Origin: Caldifarciminota bacterium
GTDB taxonomy: Bacteria; SDB-A
DNA length: 44,182 bases
Assembly (NCBI GenBank): GCA_016929715.1
Contig: JAFGIG010000101.1
Coordinates: 1-44,182, forward strand
Direction: 5' to 3'
Shown: positions 5,891-23,217 of the stretch, in pieces
Numbering within the stretch: the first letter of the stretch is position 1
Layout: every line of letters begins with the position of its first letter
The notes under the pieces: generated by a model
Told to the model about the DNA's origin: nothing
The model's input: the letters and a program-made list of their open reading frames with translations, nothing else
The model's database searches: none
Translations under genes and position numbers: made by a program

Positions 5891-7852
5891 ATGCAAGATT
5901 ATTTCGATCGTGAAAAAAACATAGAAAAGACGAGAAATCTCGTCGGTTTTGTCCCTTTTCAAAAGGCGTCCGGAGATCTTTATTCTTCTCTCGGTTTCAA
6001 ATGCGGGCTCGAAGTTCATCAGCAGCTTTTGACAGCAAAAAAGCTTTTCTGCCGCTGTCCGGCGGGATTGTATTTTCAACCCGATGATTTTGAAGCTGAA
6101 GTAATCAGACACATGCGGCCGACACTTAGCGAGCTCGGAGAGTATGACGGAACAGCCCTCATGGAATTCAAGACAAAAAAAAGGGTAATATACAGGATAA
6201 GGAAAGAGACAACATGCACATACGAGATAGACGACACTCCGCCTTTCAAGGTCAACCTTGAAGCGCTCGACATAGCTGCGGAAATAGCCTGCCTCCTCAA
6301 GACAAACATCGTCGGAGAACTGCACATAACGAGAAAACAGTATCTCGACGGAAGCATACCTACTGGTTTTCAGAGAACAGCCATAGTCGGCATAGAAGGC
6401 AGTATCCCCCTCAAAAACAAAGAAGTGAGAATAATACAGCTCAGTCTCGAAGAGGACTCCTGCAGAGAGGTTTCCGATTTCAGACACGACAGGATATTCA
6501 CTACCGACAGACTCGGAATGCCGCTAGTTGAAACCGTCACCTATCCCGACCTTCTGAATCCTCTCGAAGTCGTCGAAGCAGGGCAGTATATAAGGTTTCT
6601 CACGAGAAGCACAGGCAGGGTCAGAACAGGCATAGGCGCGACGAGACAGGACGTCAACGTCAGCATAACCGGCGGAACAAGAGTCGAACTCAAAGGTGTG
6701 CCTAAAATCAGCCTCTTCCCCTGGCTTGTCCACAACGAAGCATTCAGGCAGAAAGCTCTTCTCGAGATAAGAAAAATTCTTCTTGAAAAATTCAAAGGAA
6801 AAGAAACATGGCGACTGACTTCATGCAATTTCGATCCTGAACGCCTCAACCTTCCGCGTTCTCACACAAGGGCATACGGGAAAGAACCTCTTTCAGCCCG
6901 CGCAGTCCGCCTTCCCGGATTTGAAGGAATGCTTTCATTTTTCACTTCACCCGGAAAATCTTTTTCAGATGAATTGAGCGACAGGCTTAAAGTCGTCGCT
7001 GGACTCGAAAAACCCAATATTATGCATTCTGAAGACGGAGTATTCTGCGAAAACAAAGACGCTAAAGATTTTCTCCTGTCTAAACTCGGCTCTAAAAAAG
7101 GCGACGCTTTACTCGTCTTCTGGGGTCCTGAAGAGGACATGGAAACCGCCCTTGAAACCATAGACGAGAGATGCCTGCTTCTTTTCGACGGAATCCCGAA
7201 CGAGACGAGGAAAGGGCTCCCCGACGGAACAACCATATTTGAAAGAGTCCTCCCGGGACCGGACAGGATGTATCCGGATACTGATTCGGCTCCTATCCCC
7301 ATAGAGAGGTCCTACGTCGAAAAAATCGAATCTAATCTGCCGGTATCAGTCAATGAAAGGTTCTCTCAGCTCGATGCATGGGGCGCTCCGCAAGACGTCA
7401 GGACATACATACTCAGGAAAAATCTCATGCCGCTTCTCCAGAAGCTCAACCTAACCTACGGCGCGGACCCGAAATTCCTTTCCTGCCTTTCGGGACATTA
7501 TATAAAAAATCTCGAAGGAAAATCCGGCAAAAACTTTCCTTGGCTCAGGCTATTTGAAATTTTCGAATACATGGAATCAGAGTCAGTCGAATTTGAAAAA
7601 ATCAGGGACGTCGCCAAAATTCTCATTGAAAACCCGAACATGGAAATTGACTCGCTGTTCAGCCTCGCGGGATTTGTCAAAAGACAAAGAGATGAAGTAT
7701 TGTCAATGATACCCGAACTGAGAAAGAATTTTTCGAGAATAAGAAAATCTGAAAAAGAAGACGCTGAAAAGAGATGGCTCATGGGAAAATTAAAAAGCTT
7801 CGCGCTTGGAAACATTCCTCTCGGAGAACTTTACGGGGAGATAATACTTTGA
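5891..7852 (+). CDS. gatE: archaeal-type Glu-tRNA(Gln) amidotransferase subunit E
   Basis: With GatD this subunit converts Glu-tRNA(Gln) to Gln-tRNA(Gln) using amide nitrogen and ATP. GatE binds the tRNA and activates the glutamate. Visible are the GatB/E signature GLEVHQQL at 39-46, a Cys pair FCRC at 53-56, LEEDSCR, and the segment specific to GatE rather than GatB: GIPNETRKGLPDGTT followed by RMYPDTDSAPIPI, in the AspRS-like insert. A helical YqeY-like tail ends the protein. At 653 residues it has about 30 more at the N-terminus than I expect for the family. The ATG lacks a ribosome binding site, so the true start may be later. GatDE is described as archaeal; here it sits among bacterial genes. 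Confidence 0.93.
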   Translation: MQDYFDREKNIEKTRNLVGFVPFQKASGDLYSSLGFKCGLEVHQQLLTAKKLFCRCPAGLYFQPDDFEAEVIRHMRPTLSELGEYDGTALMEFKTKKRVIYRIRKETTCTYEIDDTPPFKVNLEALDIAAEIACLLKTNIVGELHITRKQYLDGSIPTGFQRTAIVGIEGSIPLKNKEVRIIQLSLEEDSCREVSDFRHDRIFTTDRLGMPLVETVTYPDLLNPLEVVEAGQYIRFLTRSTGRVRTGIGATRQDVNVSITGGTRVELKGVPKISLFPWLVHNEAFRQKALLEIRKILLEKFKGKETWRLTSCNFDPERLNLPRSHTRAYGKEPLSARAVRLPGFEGMLSFFTSPGKSFSDELSDRLKVVAGLEKPNIMHSEDGVFCENKDAKDFLLSKLGSKKGDALLVFWGPEEDMETALETIDERCLLLFDGIPNETRKGLPDGTTIFERVLPGPDRMYPDTDSAPIPIERSYVEKIESNLPVSVNERFSQLDAWGAPQDVRTYILRKNLMPLLQKLNLTYGADPKFLSCLSGHYIKNLEGKSGKNFPWLRLFEIFEYMESESVEFEKIRDVAKILIENPNMEIDSLFSLAGFVKRQRDEVLSMIPELRKNFSRIRKSEKEDAEKRWLMGKLKSFALGNIPLGELYGEIIL

Positions 7853-9231
7853 TGGATATTTACAAAGGATACAGAGGGCTTTCCCTTGAAGTTCTTAAAA
7901 AATACAACATTCCAGTCTGGACCGACGCTCTTGTTAAAACCGAAAAAGGCGATTTCAGAGGCATCATACTGCCAAGGTCTGTCAACGACGACGACAGGCA
8001 CATAGTTCTGAAAATACCCAACGGCTACAACATTGGAGTTTCAGCAGATTTAGTAACCGGCATCGAAGACGTTGGATACAAGGAAGCGCACTATAAAATT
8101 CCGGAAAAGGAATTTCCGTTTTCTCCCGAAAAACCCGGCATAAAACTTTTCGGAACAGGCGGGACCATTGCTTCGAGGCTCGACTACAGGACAGGCGCGG
8201 TAATTCCGGCTTTCTCTCCGGGAGAGCTTTACGGAGCCGTTCCCGAACTGGCGGATATCTGCAACCTCACAACCGAAAAGCTTTTCGCAGTTTTCAGCGA
8301 AAACATGGGACCTCAGCAGTATAAGACTCTCGCCGTTGCGATAGGAGAGGAAATAAAAAAAGGAACTCAGGGAATAGTTATAGGACACGGGACGGACACA
8401 ATGCATCACACCGCGGCCGCCTTGTCTTTCATGGTCCAGAATTCTCCTGTTCCCATCGTCATGGTAGGCTCGCAGAGATCTTCAGACAGGCCTTCTTCAG
8501 ACGCCGCATTAAATCTGATCCATGCGGTAAAGACAGCCGCAGAATCCGACATCGCCGAAGTCATGGTCTGTATGTTCGGTCCTACTTCGGATAAATACGG
8601 GCTTCTGCACAGCGGGACGAGGGTGAGGAAAATGCATTCGTCCTACCGTTCGACTTTCAGGACTGTAGGCGACATACCCATAGCTGCCGTCGACAGAGAT
8701 AAAATAACTCCCATAAGAAAACTTTATAAAAAAAGAAGGTCCGACAGAAACGTCGAAATTCATCCGTTTTTCGAAGAAAAAGTTGCAATGATATACTATT
8801 ATCCCAATATGATGCCCGACATGATAGACTCCCTTGTTGAAAATGGATACAAGGGAATAATAATCATAGGAACGGGGCTCGGTCACGTGAATAAACCTCT
8901 TTATCCCGCCATAAAAAGAGCCGCGGAAAAAAATGTTGCGATGTTCATGACCGTTCAGACGCTTTGGGGCTACACTCACATGTTTGTCTACGACACAGGA
9001 AGGGACCTGATGAGCCTCGGAGTCATCCCTGCCGAAAACATGCTCCCTGAAGTCGCCTACATTAAGCTCGGCTGGGCTCTCGGCATGACTGACGACCTCG
9101 AAGAAATCAAAAAGATTATGCTGACGCCTGTCTGCGACGAAATTACAGAAAGAGAACCCTACAACGGATATTTGATTTTCCAGGGAGGAATACCCGAAGT
9201 AGAGGATTTTCTCAGTAAAATCCATAAATAG
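7852..9231 (+). CDS. gatD: archaeal-type Glu-tRNA(Gln) amidotransferase subunit D
   Basis: The 459-residue amidase subunit releases ammonia from asparagine or glutamine for GatE. Residues 1-90 form the GatD-specific N-terminal beta domain that separates it from plain asparaginases. The L-asparaginase fold follows, with GTGGTIASR (T105), GHGTDT (T181, D182) and K260 in RVRKMHSSYR, the catalytic set of this family. The start is the ATG in TGATG, sharing one base with the gatE stop. That coupling fits the equimolar complex and rules out the 26-codon upstream extension. Direct adjacency to gatE argues against a stand-alone asparaginase. Confidence 0.94.
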   Translation: MDIYKGYRGLSLEVLKKYNIPVWTDALVKTEKGDFRGIILPRSVNDDDRHIVLKIPNGYNIGVSADLVTGIEDVGYKEAHYKIPEKEFPFSPEKPGIKLFGTGGTIASRLDYRTGAVIPAFSPGELYGAVPELADICNLTTEKLFAVFSENMGPQQYKTLAVAIGEEIKKGTQGIVIGHGTDTMHHTAAALSFMVQNSPVPIVMVGSQRSSDRPSSDAALNLIHAVKTAAESDIAEVMVCMFGPTSDKYGLLHSGTRVRKMHSSYRSTFRTVGDIPIAAVDRDKITPIRKLYKKRRSDRNVEIHPFFEEKVAMIYYYPNMMPDMIDSLVENGYKGIIIIGTGLGHVNKPLYPAIKRAAEKNVAMFMTVQTLWGYTHMFVYDTGRDLMSLGVIPAENMLPEVAYIKLGWALGMTDDLEEIKKIMLTPVCDEITEREPYNGYLIFQGGIPEVEDFLSKIHK

Positions 9232-18585: not shown

Positions 18586-19989
18586 ATGAAAAAAAAAAGG
18601 ACAATACAGAGCGCTTCCATTGTGAAGATATCTTTCTCCGAGGGCGTGTTCGCCCAGATATTTTCTTCACTGTCCGCTCCCGGAAGTATTTTTATAACAA
18701 AGTTCGCCATATTTCTCGGCGCGGGACCTTTCTATTTCGGGCTTCTGACGGCGATAGGTCAGATTTCACAGCTCTTTCAGCCAATCGGCTATATTATGAC
18801 GAGAAAAATGCCTACAAGAAAGCCCATCCTAGTAAAAATGCTCTTATTCAGCAGAGCTGCCTGTCTTCTTTTCGCTCTTCTGCCTTTCTTTTTCTCCGGC
18901 GTTCAGGCGAGGATAGTTTTCGCCCTTTTGTTTTTCGCCATAACTGCTGTTCAAGCCGCCGCCGGAAATATATGGATTTCATGGATAGCAGACCTAATAC
19001 CCGAAAGGGTCAGGGGAAGATTTTTCTCATACAGAACGCAGTTTCTGATGGTTACCGCTCTGTTGACAGGTTTTGTCTTCAGTATTTTTTTCGATATGTT
19101 CGAATCACAGGTGGGGGTTTTCGAATCTTTCAGAAAAAATGTATCCCTTCTCTCTTTCTTTAGAAAAGAAAATCTTACAGCGGCTTTCGCTGTGATTTTC
19201 TCCCTTTCCGCCTTATCAGGCATAGTCAGCGCTTTAATCCTATCCAAACAACTTGAAAAACCAAAAAAACTTTACGGGGAAAGGCTGAAAGAAACCCTGA
19301 CGTCGCCGTTTAGTGATTCTAACTTTCTCAAACTCATCATTTTTGCGACATGGTTCACTCTCGCCATTGGCGTCGGTTCTCCTTTCTGGGCTCCTTTCAT
19401 GATCCAGAAACTCAAAATGAACCTTTTCCTCATACAGATATACGGAACCGTCAGCGTTTTGGCTTCGGTTATTTCTCTGAGATACTGGGGGCGTTTTATA
19501 GACAGATTCGGCAACAAGACTACAATGAGGATTACTGTTATTTTGGGAGGTATTAACCCTTTTGTCTGGGTCTTTCTCAACCAAAACAATTTCTGGATTG
19601 TCTATATCGAAGGAATTACATCCGGTATAATGTGGTCGGCGACAAACGTGATATTCACAAATTTCGTTTTGTCAATATCACCCCAGGGCAAAAACCAGAT
19701 TTATTCGGGAATTTTCGGAGCTTTCACAGCCGCAGGCATAGTAATCAGCGCGCTTCTCTCGGGAATTTTCATGCCTCCGGCTATAAAAAACGCTTTTGTT
19801 CAAATAGAGCCCGAGCAAATACTTTTCGCCGCAACGGGCTTTTTGAGGTGGACAGCTGAGATTCCCCTTTCATGGGTAAAAGAACCCCGGTCTAAGCCTC
19901 TGGGTTTCGCTTTGCTTTATATGATATCTTCTGTCAAGATGAAAATAATAAATATGGGTCTTCTTTTGAGGACTTTCGTCTCTAAATAA
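18586..19989 (+). CDS. MFS transporter
   Basis: A 467-residue membrane protein with about twelve hydrophobic segments and a charged central loop (SKQLEKPKKLYGERLKE). MFS-like signatures are LIPERVRGRFFSYR after TM4 and GRFIDRFGNKTTMR in the second half. The substrate is unknown. The ATG at 18586 follows TTTGGAGAA. It is a single gene, divergent from the acyltransferase, with a TTGACA at 18536-18541 in the 74-base gap but no convincing -10. Confidence 0.85.
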   Translation: MKKKRTIQSASIVKISFSEGVFAQIFSSLSAPGSIFITKFAIFLGAGPFYFGLLTAIGQISQLFQPIGYIMTRKMPTRKPILVKMLLFSRAACLLFALLPFFFSGVQARIVFALLFFAITAVQAAAGNIWISWIADLIPERVRGRFFSYRTQFLMVTALLTGFVFSIFFDMFESQVGVFESFRKNVSLLSFFRKENLTAAFAVIFSLSALSGIVSALILSKQLEKPKKLYGERLKETLTSPFSDSNFLKLIIFATWFTLAIGVGSPFWAPFMIQKLKMNLFLIQIYGTVSVLASVISLRYWGRFIDRFGNKTTMRITVILGGINPFVWVFLNQNNFWIVYIEGITSGIMWSATNVIFTNFVLSISPQGKNQIYSGIFGAFTAAGIVISALLSGIFMPPAIKNAFVQIEPEQILFAATGFLRWTAEIPLSWVKEPRSKPLGFALLYMISSVKMKIINMGLLLRTFVSK

Positions 19990-20021
19990 TTTTGTCCCCC
20001 CCCTCGATGGGTTTAATTTCA

Positions 20022-20050
20022 TTGACATAAAAGCCTCCTATAATTTATCC
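20022..20050 (+). promoter_or_regulatory. candidate promoter for the selenoprotein gene
   Basis: TTGACA is at 20022-20027 and a perfect TATAAT at 20039-20044, but only 11 bases separate them. A 17-base spacing from TTGACA would instead place TTATCC (20045-20050) at -10. One of the two elements is probably used with a weaker partner. The leader would be about 20 bases and includes AAAAAGGAGG before the ATG. Confidence 0.4.
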
Positions 20051-20071
20051 TTTACTGAAAAAGGAGGACAG

Positions 20072-21127
20072 ATGACCCGTAACCGGCTTTTATGCCTATT
20101 TTTGACACTCTTAGCGGCTCTGCCGCTGTCCGGAGCAATCCGCAAACCGCTTCTTGAAATTCACAGCGGAGCCAATTGAGGGGGTTGCGCTTCATCTGCA
20201 GGTCTGCAGAACACATTTATAACAGCCAACTGGGACAGCCTTTCAGCTCTAAAATATTACCTTTATTCGACTGAACCCCTATACAGCCCGGACGGCTGGG
20301 GAAGGTTTCAGTTCTACGGCGGATCTGTCATACCGAGAGCCAATATGGACGGCGGAGCGATGTTCGCGCCTACATCCTCTACCGCGCTGAATACCGCCTA
20401 CGCGACTGCAATGACGATTCCGTGTCACGTCGAAATCCTTCTTCAGGGGACGGCAGAGCCCGATCTGATGTCGGGGACTCTCGGCATCACTATAATTGCC
20501 GAACAGGAACCGGGAGCGAGCCCTTACTACCTTCATGCAGCCGCTTGTTCTCACCTCGTCCCTTACAGTTACAGTTATTTTTCAGAATTTCACTATCCCC
20601 TGAGGAAAATGTATCCCAACTACAACGGGACTCTCGTAACTTTTTCAGGGGTATATCCTGAAACACTTCAGTATAACATTCCTTTCTCACTCAGCGCTTC
20701 CTGGTGGCACCTCGAACCGGACGACATCTATTTTGCAGTATGGCTCCAGACAAACAAAGGCACCGACAAACAAATTCATCAGAGCGAGAACATTGAGATA
20801 ACGGTATTCAATTCAGTCGAGGAAACGCCTTCTCCTGTCGTCTCTTCGGGAGTATTCGCCCTTGGGGCTGTTTATCCCAATCCGTTCTCAGATGTTTCTT
20901 TCATTCCGGTTTTAGTTGAAAAACCTGCAGTGATATCCTTAAAAATCTTCGACCTCACAGGCAGAGCTGTAAGAGACCTGTTTTCAGAATCCCTCGTCGA
21001 AAACGATATCGTCTTGTTTTGGGATGGCAAAGACGACTCCGGCGCTGAAATGAATGCCGGCATATACAGAATACAGCTCACAGGTGACGGATTCAGGGAC
21101 TCCAAAACAATCATAAAAATAAGATAA
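20072..21127 (+). CDS. exported Omp28/thioredoxin-like selenoprotein with C-terminal sorting domain
   Basis: A 351-residue reading with one in-frame TGA (20177-20179) read as selenocysteine 36. AAAAAGGAGG precedes the ATG at 20072. Residues 1-22 are a signal peptide (RLLCLFLTLLAALPLSGA). LLEIHSGAN-U-GGC follows: a thioredoxin-fold first strand leading to U36-x-x-C39, resembling the LLE-F-TG-x-CxxC opening of Omp28-type surface proteins. The later GGSVIPRANMDG fits the cis-Pro loop. The last 85 or so residues (YPNPF, IFDLTGRAVRDL, NAGIYRIQLTGDG) are a FlgD-Ig/T9SS-like sorting domain. The frame stays open from TGA to 21127. A pseudogene or a shorter gene from ATG 20345 are the alternatives, but the SECIS hairpin argues against both. 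The redox partner is unknown. Confidence 0.85.
20177..20210 (+). promoter_or_regulatory. Sec codon (TGA) and bacterial SECIS hairpin
   Basis: The TGA at 20177-20179 is followed by a perfect 6-bp stem, TCTGCA (20195-20200) with TGCAGA (20205-20210), closed by the loop GGTC. The core TGCAGGTCTGCA is, from memory, the apical hairpin of the E. coli fdhF SECIS recognised by SelB. The GGU loop begins 21 bases after the TGA, against about 18 in fdhF. An alternative fold pairs TTC with GAA and leaves ATC unpaired on the 5' side, like the bulged-U feature. The hairpin lies inside coding sequence, as bacterial SECIS elements do. Confidence 0.85.
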
Positions 21128-21134
21128 GATTAAA

Positions 21135-21158
21135 AGGGGAGTTGGAAAAAACTCCCCT
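21135..21158 (+). terminator. intrinsic terminator after the selenoprotein gene
   Basis: GGGGAGTT (21136-21143) pairs with AACTCCCC (21150-21157) around a GGAAAA loop. An outer A-T pair and a T-containing tail follow, starting eight bases after the TAA stop. Read from the other strand it also has a T-rich tail (CCCCTTTTAATCTT), so it may work in both directions. Confidence 0.7.
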
Positions 21159-21206
21159 CTTTCATAAATATTTTTCAAAAAAAACTTGACTTTTTTAGAT
21201 TTTCAT

Positions 21207-21315
21207 TCAATTATCCTCAGTTAACTCAATCGGTGAGGTGAAGATGTTTTTGACCATAAATACTGCTTTATAGCTTCCAGAGTCGTTCCCGCTCAGGCGG
21301 AGAGTAGTTTCCAAC
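21207..21315 (-). pseudogene. possible gene remnant in the selenoprotein-ABC exporter gap
   Basis: In the 233-base gap 21128-21360 one minus-strand frame reads TTLRLSGNDSGSYKAVF, then MVKNIFTSPIELTEDN and a stop at 21207. It has the look of coding sequence and resembles the end of a secreted beta-sandwich protein. There is no start codon with a ribosome binding site. Further upstream the frame runs on only as the antisense of the ABC exporter. It may be the 3' remnant of a lost gene, or chance. Nothing else is evident in the gap except the terminator and the ABC gene leader. Confidence 0.22.
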
Positions 21316-21360
21316 AAAAATAAAAACGATGCGACGCGTTGATGCAGAGGGTTATATATT

Positions 21361-23217
21361 ATGTTCACGAGATTGAGACAGACAAACGAAATACTAAAAG
21401 GCCATCGCCTAACTTTCGCCTTATCAATATTCTGCATGTCAGCGGCGGCTTTTTTCGGATTTATTTCGCCACTGATTATAAGATATGTCATTGACACTGT
21501 AATAGAGGGAAAAGCGCCCGGATTTCCTTTCAATATTTTAAGCTTTATGAGCCAAAAAAACTCTTTGGGAGAAAGTTTGTTCACAGCCGGCGCTCTGCTC
21601 GTAGGAGTCACTTTTCTGCAGGGCGTCTTCACGCTTCTTAAAGGAGCTCTCTCTTCGAGGTCTTCAGAGGGCGCTACAAGAGATCTCAGGGACAGGCTCT
21701 ACAATCACATACAGCACCTGCCTTTTTCCTTTCACACCAGAGTCAAAACGGGAGACCTGATTCAGAGGTGCACTTCAGATGTCGAGACAATCAGAAGGTT
21801 TTTTTCAGTTCAATTCATCGAAATAGGAAGAGCGATAGTCATGCTCTGCCTTGTCATACCGATAATGATAAAATTGAACGCGGTCATGACTTTTTACTCA
21901 ATGCTGATAATTCCTGTTATCTTTGCTTTTTCAGTTTTTTTCTTCATCAGGGTTAAAAAGGCGTTTAAGAAATCCGATGAATCCGAGGGCGCTCTCTCTG
22001 CGATGCTTCAGGAAAATCTAACGGGAATCCGCGTCGTCAGGGCTTTTGCGAGACAGGATTTCGAGATGAAAAAGTTTGACCTGAAAAACAAAGACTTCAG
22101 GGACTTGACATACAAACTCATAATATTGCTGTCGCTTTACTGGTCTTCATCCGACTTTCTCTGTCTGGCTCAGATAGCCCTTATAACTGTTATAGGAGTT
22201 AAGATGTCTCTCGCCGGAGATTTGTCAATAGGAACTCTTGTTGTATTCGTTTCTTACGAAAGCCTTCTCCTATGGCCTGTCAGGCAGATGGGCAGGATTA
22301 TCACAGATATGGGCAAGACTTTCGTTTCTGTTGAAAGAGTCAACGAGATACTTTCGGAAAAAACAGAATACAGACTTTCCGAAAGCGGTTCAGTTATCCC
22401 TGAAAGCCGACTTCTCAAAGGTTTCAGCATAAAAGGGAATATTCAATTCCGGGATGTCTGGTATTTTTTCCCGAATTCAACAGAACCCGCTCTTAGGGGC
22501 ATAAATATCAAGGTGCGGGAAGGACAGACTGCCGCTATTATGGGACCTACGGGCTCCGGGAAAACAGCTTTAGTGAGTGTGCTGCCTCGGCTTCATGAAT
22601 ATTCGAAAGGGTCAGTTCTCATTGACGGCGTGGAGTTAAATACAATAGACCCCCATTTTATAAGAAAAAACATCGGCATAGTTCTTCAGGAACCATTTTT
22701 GTTTTCAAAGACAATCAAGGAAAACCTCATAATGGGCAAAAAAATCTCTTCGGAAGATGAGATTCATGCCGTATCTGAAATTTCAGCGGTCCACGACTCT
22801 ATACTGTCTTTTGAAAAAGGCTACGATACTCTTGTAGGCGAAAGAGGCGTGACGCTTTCAGGAGGGCAGAAACAGAGGATAGCAATCGCAAGAACCCTTC
22901 TCAAAGATCCTCCTCTTTTGATTTTCGACGATTCTTTCAGCTCTCTTGATTCCGATACCGACATCAGGATAAGAAGCGCCCTCAGGAAAAGAGAAGGCAA
23001 GAGAACGACAATTTTGATATCTCACAGGATATCCTCCATCTCACACGCAGACGTAATCTTCGTCATGGAGAACGGAGAGATAAAACAGTCCGGCGACCAT
23101 GAAAGCCTTATAAGAGAAGATGGCTTATACAGGAGAATATGGGGAATTCAGTCAGAATTCGAAAAAGAAGCTGAAGAGGCTGGAATAGCAGCCGAAAAAG
23201 AGGCAGTCCATGAATGA
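21361..23217 (+). CDS. ABC exporter half-transporter, degenerate-site subunit
   Basis: A 618-residue type IV (multidrug/lipid-type) exporter subunit: six membrane helices (1-320), then the nucleotide-binding domain. It has Walker A GPTGSGKT at 395-402, an intact signature LSGGQ at 499-503, Walker B LLIFDD at 519-524 and the switch H555. The catalytic glutamate after Walker B is aspartate (D524), so its own ATP site should be slow or dead. That is the pattern of heterodimeric exporters such as BmrCD or TM287/288. It overlaps the partner gene by eight bases. The substrate is unknown. Confidence 0.92.
   Translation: MFTRLRQTNEILKGHRLTFALSIFCMSAAAFFGFISPLIIRYVIDTVIEGKAPGFPFNILSFMSQKNSLGESLFTAGALLVGVTFLQGVFTLLKGALSSRSSEGATRDLRDRLYNHIQHLPFSFHTRVKTGDLIQRCTSDVETIRRFFSVQFIEIGRAIVMLCLVIPIMIKLNAVMTFYSMLIIPVIFAFSVFFFIRVKKAFKKSDESEGALSAMLQENLTGIRVVRAFARQDFEMKKFDLKNKDFRDLTYKLIILLSLYWSSSDFLCLAQIALITVIGVKMSLAGDLSIGTLVVFVSYESLLLWPVRQMGRIITDMGKTFVSVERVNEILSEKTEYRLSESGSVIPESRLLKGFSIKGNIQFRDVWYFFPNSTEPALRGINIKVREGQTAAIMGPTGSGKTALVSVLPRLHEYSKGSVLIDGVELNTIDPHFIRKNIGIVLQEPFLFSKTIKENLIMGKKISSEDEIHAVSEISAVHDSILSFEKGYDTLVGERGVTLSGGQKQRIAIARTLLKDPPLLIFDDSFSSLDSDTDIRIRSALRKREGKRTTILISHRISSISHADVIFVMENGEIKQSGDHESLIREDGLYRRIWGIQSEFEKEAEEAGIAAEKEAVHE

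Follow-up and report, generated by a model that had tools for sequence, protein, structure and literature searches.

The window analyzed here is a single stretch of 44,182 nucleotides from a Caldifarciminota bacterium, and on its forward strand, at 20072–21127, it carries a gene that would encode a protein of 351 residues if the TGA at codon 36 is read as selenocysteine (Sec). Exactly two stops lie in this frame, the conserved TGA at 20177–20179 and the TAA at 21125, which bears out the claim of an initial annotation that the frame is interrupted by the codon-36 TGA only. The same annotation had described a strong ribosome binding site and a signal peptide, and both can be seen: AAGGAGG at 20061–20067, with the ATG 4 nt downstream, and a hydrophobic N-terminus that by eye resembles a signal peptide (residues 1–22; 20072–20137). 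With the TGA read as Sec, the active-site motif becomes N-U-G-G-C, where the predicted Sec36 is residue 1 of a UxxC pair and Cys39 (20186–20188) would be the resolving cysteine. A terminator-like inverted repeat of 12 pairs, found by consensus scan 3' of the gene (21132–21161) and scored on the reverse strand only, may serve it, and a sigma-70 promoter scan gave a 10/12 match at 20022–20051 (five matches found against 2.0 expected), to which we assign no weight. Elsewhere in the window, at 5891–9231 on the forward strand, adjoin gatE (TIGR00134, 377.7 bits; cut-off 319.6) and gatD (TIGR02153, 500.8 bits; cut-off 324), a pair encoding an archaeal-type Glu-tRNA(Gln) amidotransferase in an otherwise bacterial genome.

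Read through the TGA, the protein is modeled by AlphaFold2, at moderate confidence (pLDDT 74.4), as a thioredoxin fold (20135–20419) followed by an Omp28-type beta-sandwich domain (20423–20821). Among solved structures it is best matched by Porphyromonas gingivalis HBP35 (PDB 5y1a; Foldseek E 2.2e-6), with which VIA-align superposes it at Z 19.3 over 221 residues, so that the two-domain fold of HBP35 is recovered; the third match, the P. gingivalis Omp28 domain 2r2c, aligns with model residues 97–228 (Z 11.9, 106 residues). Profile matches of the first domain to solved thioredoxins are weak. A Pfam scan of the window protein's domain gave no family, PF11551 (Omp28) included, one paralogue reaching E 0.2, and a sequence search of GTDB contigs returned matches to the tail domain only. 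The description of the protein as Omp28-like therefore stands by structure comparison and not by Pfam. The C-terminal region (20870–21118) is a type A sorting tail of the type IX secretion system (T9SS; TIGR04183, 31.7 bits; cut-off 23), and the same genome encodes the translocon protein SprA in one frame (427 bits), for which none of 14 control genomes gave a match. By sequence and predicted structure, the product belongs to the Omp28/HBP35 type of thioredoxin-fold proteins, with a predicted UxxC site and a type IX secretion tail.

A protein search of four genomes of the phylum, the window's own genome included, recovered six other copies whose corresponding codon is also TGA (L018, L019, L020, L021, L025 and L027; 44–74% identity; spread over the four genomes) and four paralogues with Cys in its place (L023, L024, L026 and L029). 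Both active-site columns are invariant in all 11 copies, as Sec or Cys in the first and Cys in the second; the alignment that the initial annotation had called for thus gives TGA or Cys at position 36 throughout, and the paralogues confirm that the TGA stands for the first Cys of a CxxC, as it had proposed. It could be argued that a Cys-type gene has acquired the TGA by nonsense mutation, or shows it through an error of base calling, given that Cys paralogues exist and that the assembly is of metagenome type (1.98 Mb in 142 contigs, 94.7% complete). Against this, the same TGA occurs in the six other copies and in 21 relatives outside the phylum, and the codons beyond it are under purifying selection; a pseudogene or sequencing error is strongly disfavored, to the point of being extremely improbable. 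The selection shows in the 56 codons directly 3' of the TGA, where dN/dS between the window copy (L017) and L019 is about 0.05. All of these codons precede Met92 (20345), the first ATG from which translation might restart after stopping at the TGA and the start of an ORF of 260 residues; such a restart would yield a protein lacking the thioredoxin active site, and P. gingivalis also makes shorter forms of HBP35 (PMC2907840). The stretch from the TGA to Met92 is, however, conserved as protein, the invariant Cys39 included, and selection immediately after the TGA argues that translation crosses it. As the main outcome, a restart at Met92 is accordingly most improbable, and its product could be a minor form made under selenium shortage. 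We note that the second copy in the window's own genome lies partly on contig C63 and partly on C30, the two sharing an exact overlap of 87 bases, and that the phylum has another, distant Omp28-type family (L038 1552–2256 and L063 465–1160) with TGA at the first CxxC Cys, followed in both genomes by the identical hairpin CCAGC-CGTGA-GCTGG.

Downstream of the codon-36 TGA, the message is predicted to fold into a hairpin, UCUGCA-GGUC-UGCAGA (20195–20210, forward strand), with a 6-bp stem and a loop at 20201–20204, the core of which may match that of the E. coli fdhF SECIS, as the initial annotation had it. The initial annotation had placed this hairpin 21 bases after the TGA, a distance that is right for the loop (21 nt) and not for the base of the stem, which starts at 15 nt. 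In a published model of the bacterial SECIS, the loop spans 3–9 nt with a G in its first two positions, the stem 4–16 bp and the spacing 16–37 nt, with a minimum free energy of −7.5 or lower (PMC13188914). The window element agrees with this model in loop G, stem and spacing, and in energy only when the 45 nt after the TGA are taken together (−9.9 kcal/mol), the hairpin by itself lying above the limit (−6.5 to −7.3 kcal/mol). The fold z-score is −1.5, and an Rfam scan of 19900–21400 found no match to a SECIS family, only chance matches below gathering scores. Under a loose rule, moreover, of the window's 1749 TGA triplets 35 (2%) are followed by a hairpin of equal or greater stability, and comparative support is therefore needed. 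Two further in-frame TGAs with hairpins (5455 and 20272) were considered and dropped, since nothing else spoke for them.

The comparative support comes from the seven TGA copies, every one of which has, in the corresponding position, a hairpin with a G-containing loop, five of them with the loop GGUC, and it is this conservation that lifts the hairpin above chance. In the three copies of the L020 type (L020, L025 and L027) the loop-closing pair has changed on both sides, from A-U to U-A, although these hairpins are weak (−3.3 to −4.1 kcal/mol). When the partner columns are shifted, pairing is lost, from 93% of cells in the true register to 24–55%; the covariation as such amounts to one clear compensatory pair, and to one or two pairs at most, among seven related sequences. 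Folding of the Cys paralogues gave no comparable hairpin.

If the TGA is to be decoded as Sec, the cell must possess the machinery to do so, and the four sel genes that the initial annotation had proposed to look for are all present. The genes selA (494.7 bits) and selB (315.9 bits) adjoin on contig C142 and selD lies on contig C81 (357.6 bits), while selC lies in two parts, one at an end of C67 and one at an end of C142, the two contigs having 79 exact bases in common. With the gene broken across these ends (L009 and L011), ARAGORN detects it on neither contig alone, so that the genome might pass for selC-negative; on the joined sequence, ARAGORN reports a tRNA-SeC with anticodon TCA, that is, tRNA-Sec(UCA). 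The selD gene (L008 1501–2418) itself contains a TGA in frame, within the active-site motif GUAAK, and serves as an internal positive control for the use of Sec. A different reading of the TGA would be its genome-wide reassignment to a standard amino acid, and in its favor the only release factor found in this assembly, in a search for prfB (RF2), is RF1-like (L121, contig C26). Yet TGA terminates 25 of the 37 genes in the window and is internal to none of those 25, in keeping with the initial annotation's view of it as an ordinary stop, and the Sec machinery is complete. Since prfB scores above cut-off in all three other genomes of the phylum, and the assembly is 94.7% complete, we read its absence here as an assembly gap, and reassignment as next to impossible. 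Insertion of selenocysteine at codon 36 is, on this sequence evidence, very likely, on the strength of the machinery, the Sec/Cys column, the matching hairpins, the selection after the TGA and the normal use of TGA as a stop. The original proposal of a selenoprotein with a SECIS element, made from the window alone, is thus supported.

The Sec/Cys exchange extends beyond the phylum. A profile of the window branch matched in 45 of 386 genomes, and the 17 TGA-bearing loci fetched from 13 genomes outside the phylum all have the TGA at the first CxxC position; in most of them a hairpin follows, its loop being GGUC, CGUGA or the like. Four more TGA loci, obtained by searching with the NCBIfam model NF045500, behave in the same way, bringing the total to 21 of 21 with TGA at the same Cys. 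By the window-branch profile search, selA is above cut-off in 15/16 genomes with a TGA copy vs. 16/28 counted as “Cys only” (Fisher p 0.010); at least one genome on the latter side (G004) does carry a TGA copy as well. We also observed that one genome (G289) carries two genes of Omp28 type whose Cys site is TGA (L091 and L094) and no selA above cut-off, which reflects either an assembly gap or decaying use of Sec, and that in one relative (L079) the first active-site residue is something other than Sec or Cys (TTTTDMENC), so that its redox site may have been lost. In a quickly built tree with 50 sequences, in which some branches are long and lineages were counted through family codes, Sec and Cys forms are interleaved and the Sec/Cys label requires 10 changes, at least four of them on well-supported branches. 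Six Sec copies of the window branch form one clade (support 96), nested in a ten-member clade that also contains the four Cys paralogues. We consider it rather probable that Omp28/HBP35-type secreted thioredoxin-fold proteins constitute a broad and largely uncatalogued selenoprotein superfamily spanning many lineages of bacteria, with repeated replacement of Sec and Cys and with a part of its members displayed by the T9SS. If so, that part would present selenocysteine at the cell surface. Since routine annotation cuts such genes at the TGA, a group of surface redox proteins is likely to be mis-annotated in many uncultured lineages.

We hold it to be highly probable, from sequence and structure model, that the window gene is read through its TGA as Sec and that its product is a secreted Omp28/HBP35-type UxxC redox protein carried by the type IX system. 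In such a pathway, SelB, tRNA-Sec and the SECIS would together read the in-frame TGA of 20072–21127, the T9SS would carry the product through the outer membrane, and the protein would then be held on the cell surface or released from it. There the Sec-x-x-Cys site would reduce, oxidize or isomerize disulfides, with Sec presumably a faster nucleophile than is Cys in the paralogues. The gene hence offers a testable case of a predicted selenocysteine on a type IX-exported protein.

Among related systems, HBP35 offers one close comparison. It shares with the window protein the two-domain fold, the T9SS tail and a two-residue thioredoxin site (C48 and C51 in HBP35), and differs in having Cys where Sec is predicted here, at an overall identity of 11%. 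HBP35 is exported through the Por system (PMC3120885), outperforms E. coli thioredoxin in insulin reduction, loses this activity when both Cys are changed, and complements an E. coli dsbA mutant (PMC2907840). The likeness in fold, together with these export and reductase data, leads us to infer a surface-exposed thiol-disulfide oxidoreductase with Sec as the attacking residue, and by this analogy a cell-surface oxidoreductase is most likely what the window gene encodes. HBP35 also binds hemin, outside its CxxC (PMC2907840), and a Sec protein of the same fold might mainly be something else, such as a haem- or metal-binding surface protein. The first and second residues of the UxxC pair are invariant in 11/11 copies, as expected of a redox site, and we regard such a primary role as unlikely. 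With the Omp28 outer-membrane lipoproteins (PF11551, NF033782; PDB 2r2c) the window protein shares the fold of its second domain, and differs from them in matching neither the Pfam nor the NCBIfam Omp28 model.

The remaining comparison concerns novelty. The initial annotation had known of no described Omp28-like selenoprotein family and had suggested that this one might be new, and a literature search for Omp28 together with selenoprotein, which found nothing, seemed to point the same way. This suggestion is overturned by NF045500, which NCBIfam names “Omp28-related selenoprotein” and which appears as GOS_C, with a UxxC motif, among the 119 prokaryotic selenoprotein families catalogued in 2026 (PMC13188914); GOS_C was predicted in 2008 by Zhang and Gladyshev from 74 Sec sequences, with a thioredoxin-like fold and UxxC (PMC2398784). 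The window protein resembles this family in its predicted Sec in a UxxC, its thioredoxin-like fold and its bacterial SECIS, and the Cys paralogues of the phylum align weakly with the NF045500 model (17–32 bits), as does the distant TGA protein L038 (43.5 bits). In contrast, the window protein itself does not match the model, no locus in the 386 genomes reaches its cut-off of 200 bits, and of the 10 outside loci scored among the 17, nine lie at 26 to 58 bits and one gives no match at a threshold of E 0.01. We therefore file the window protein as a divergent relative and not as a member, its branch being, by sequence, a divergent subfamily outside the NF045500 model. As 13 genomes outside the phylum contain TGA copies and no locus in the 386 searched lies above the cut-off, the known family seems narrower than the real one: the general kind of protein has already been described, and what is new is this branch and its broad, previously uncatalogued spread among bacteria.
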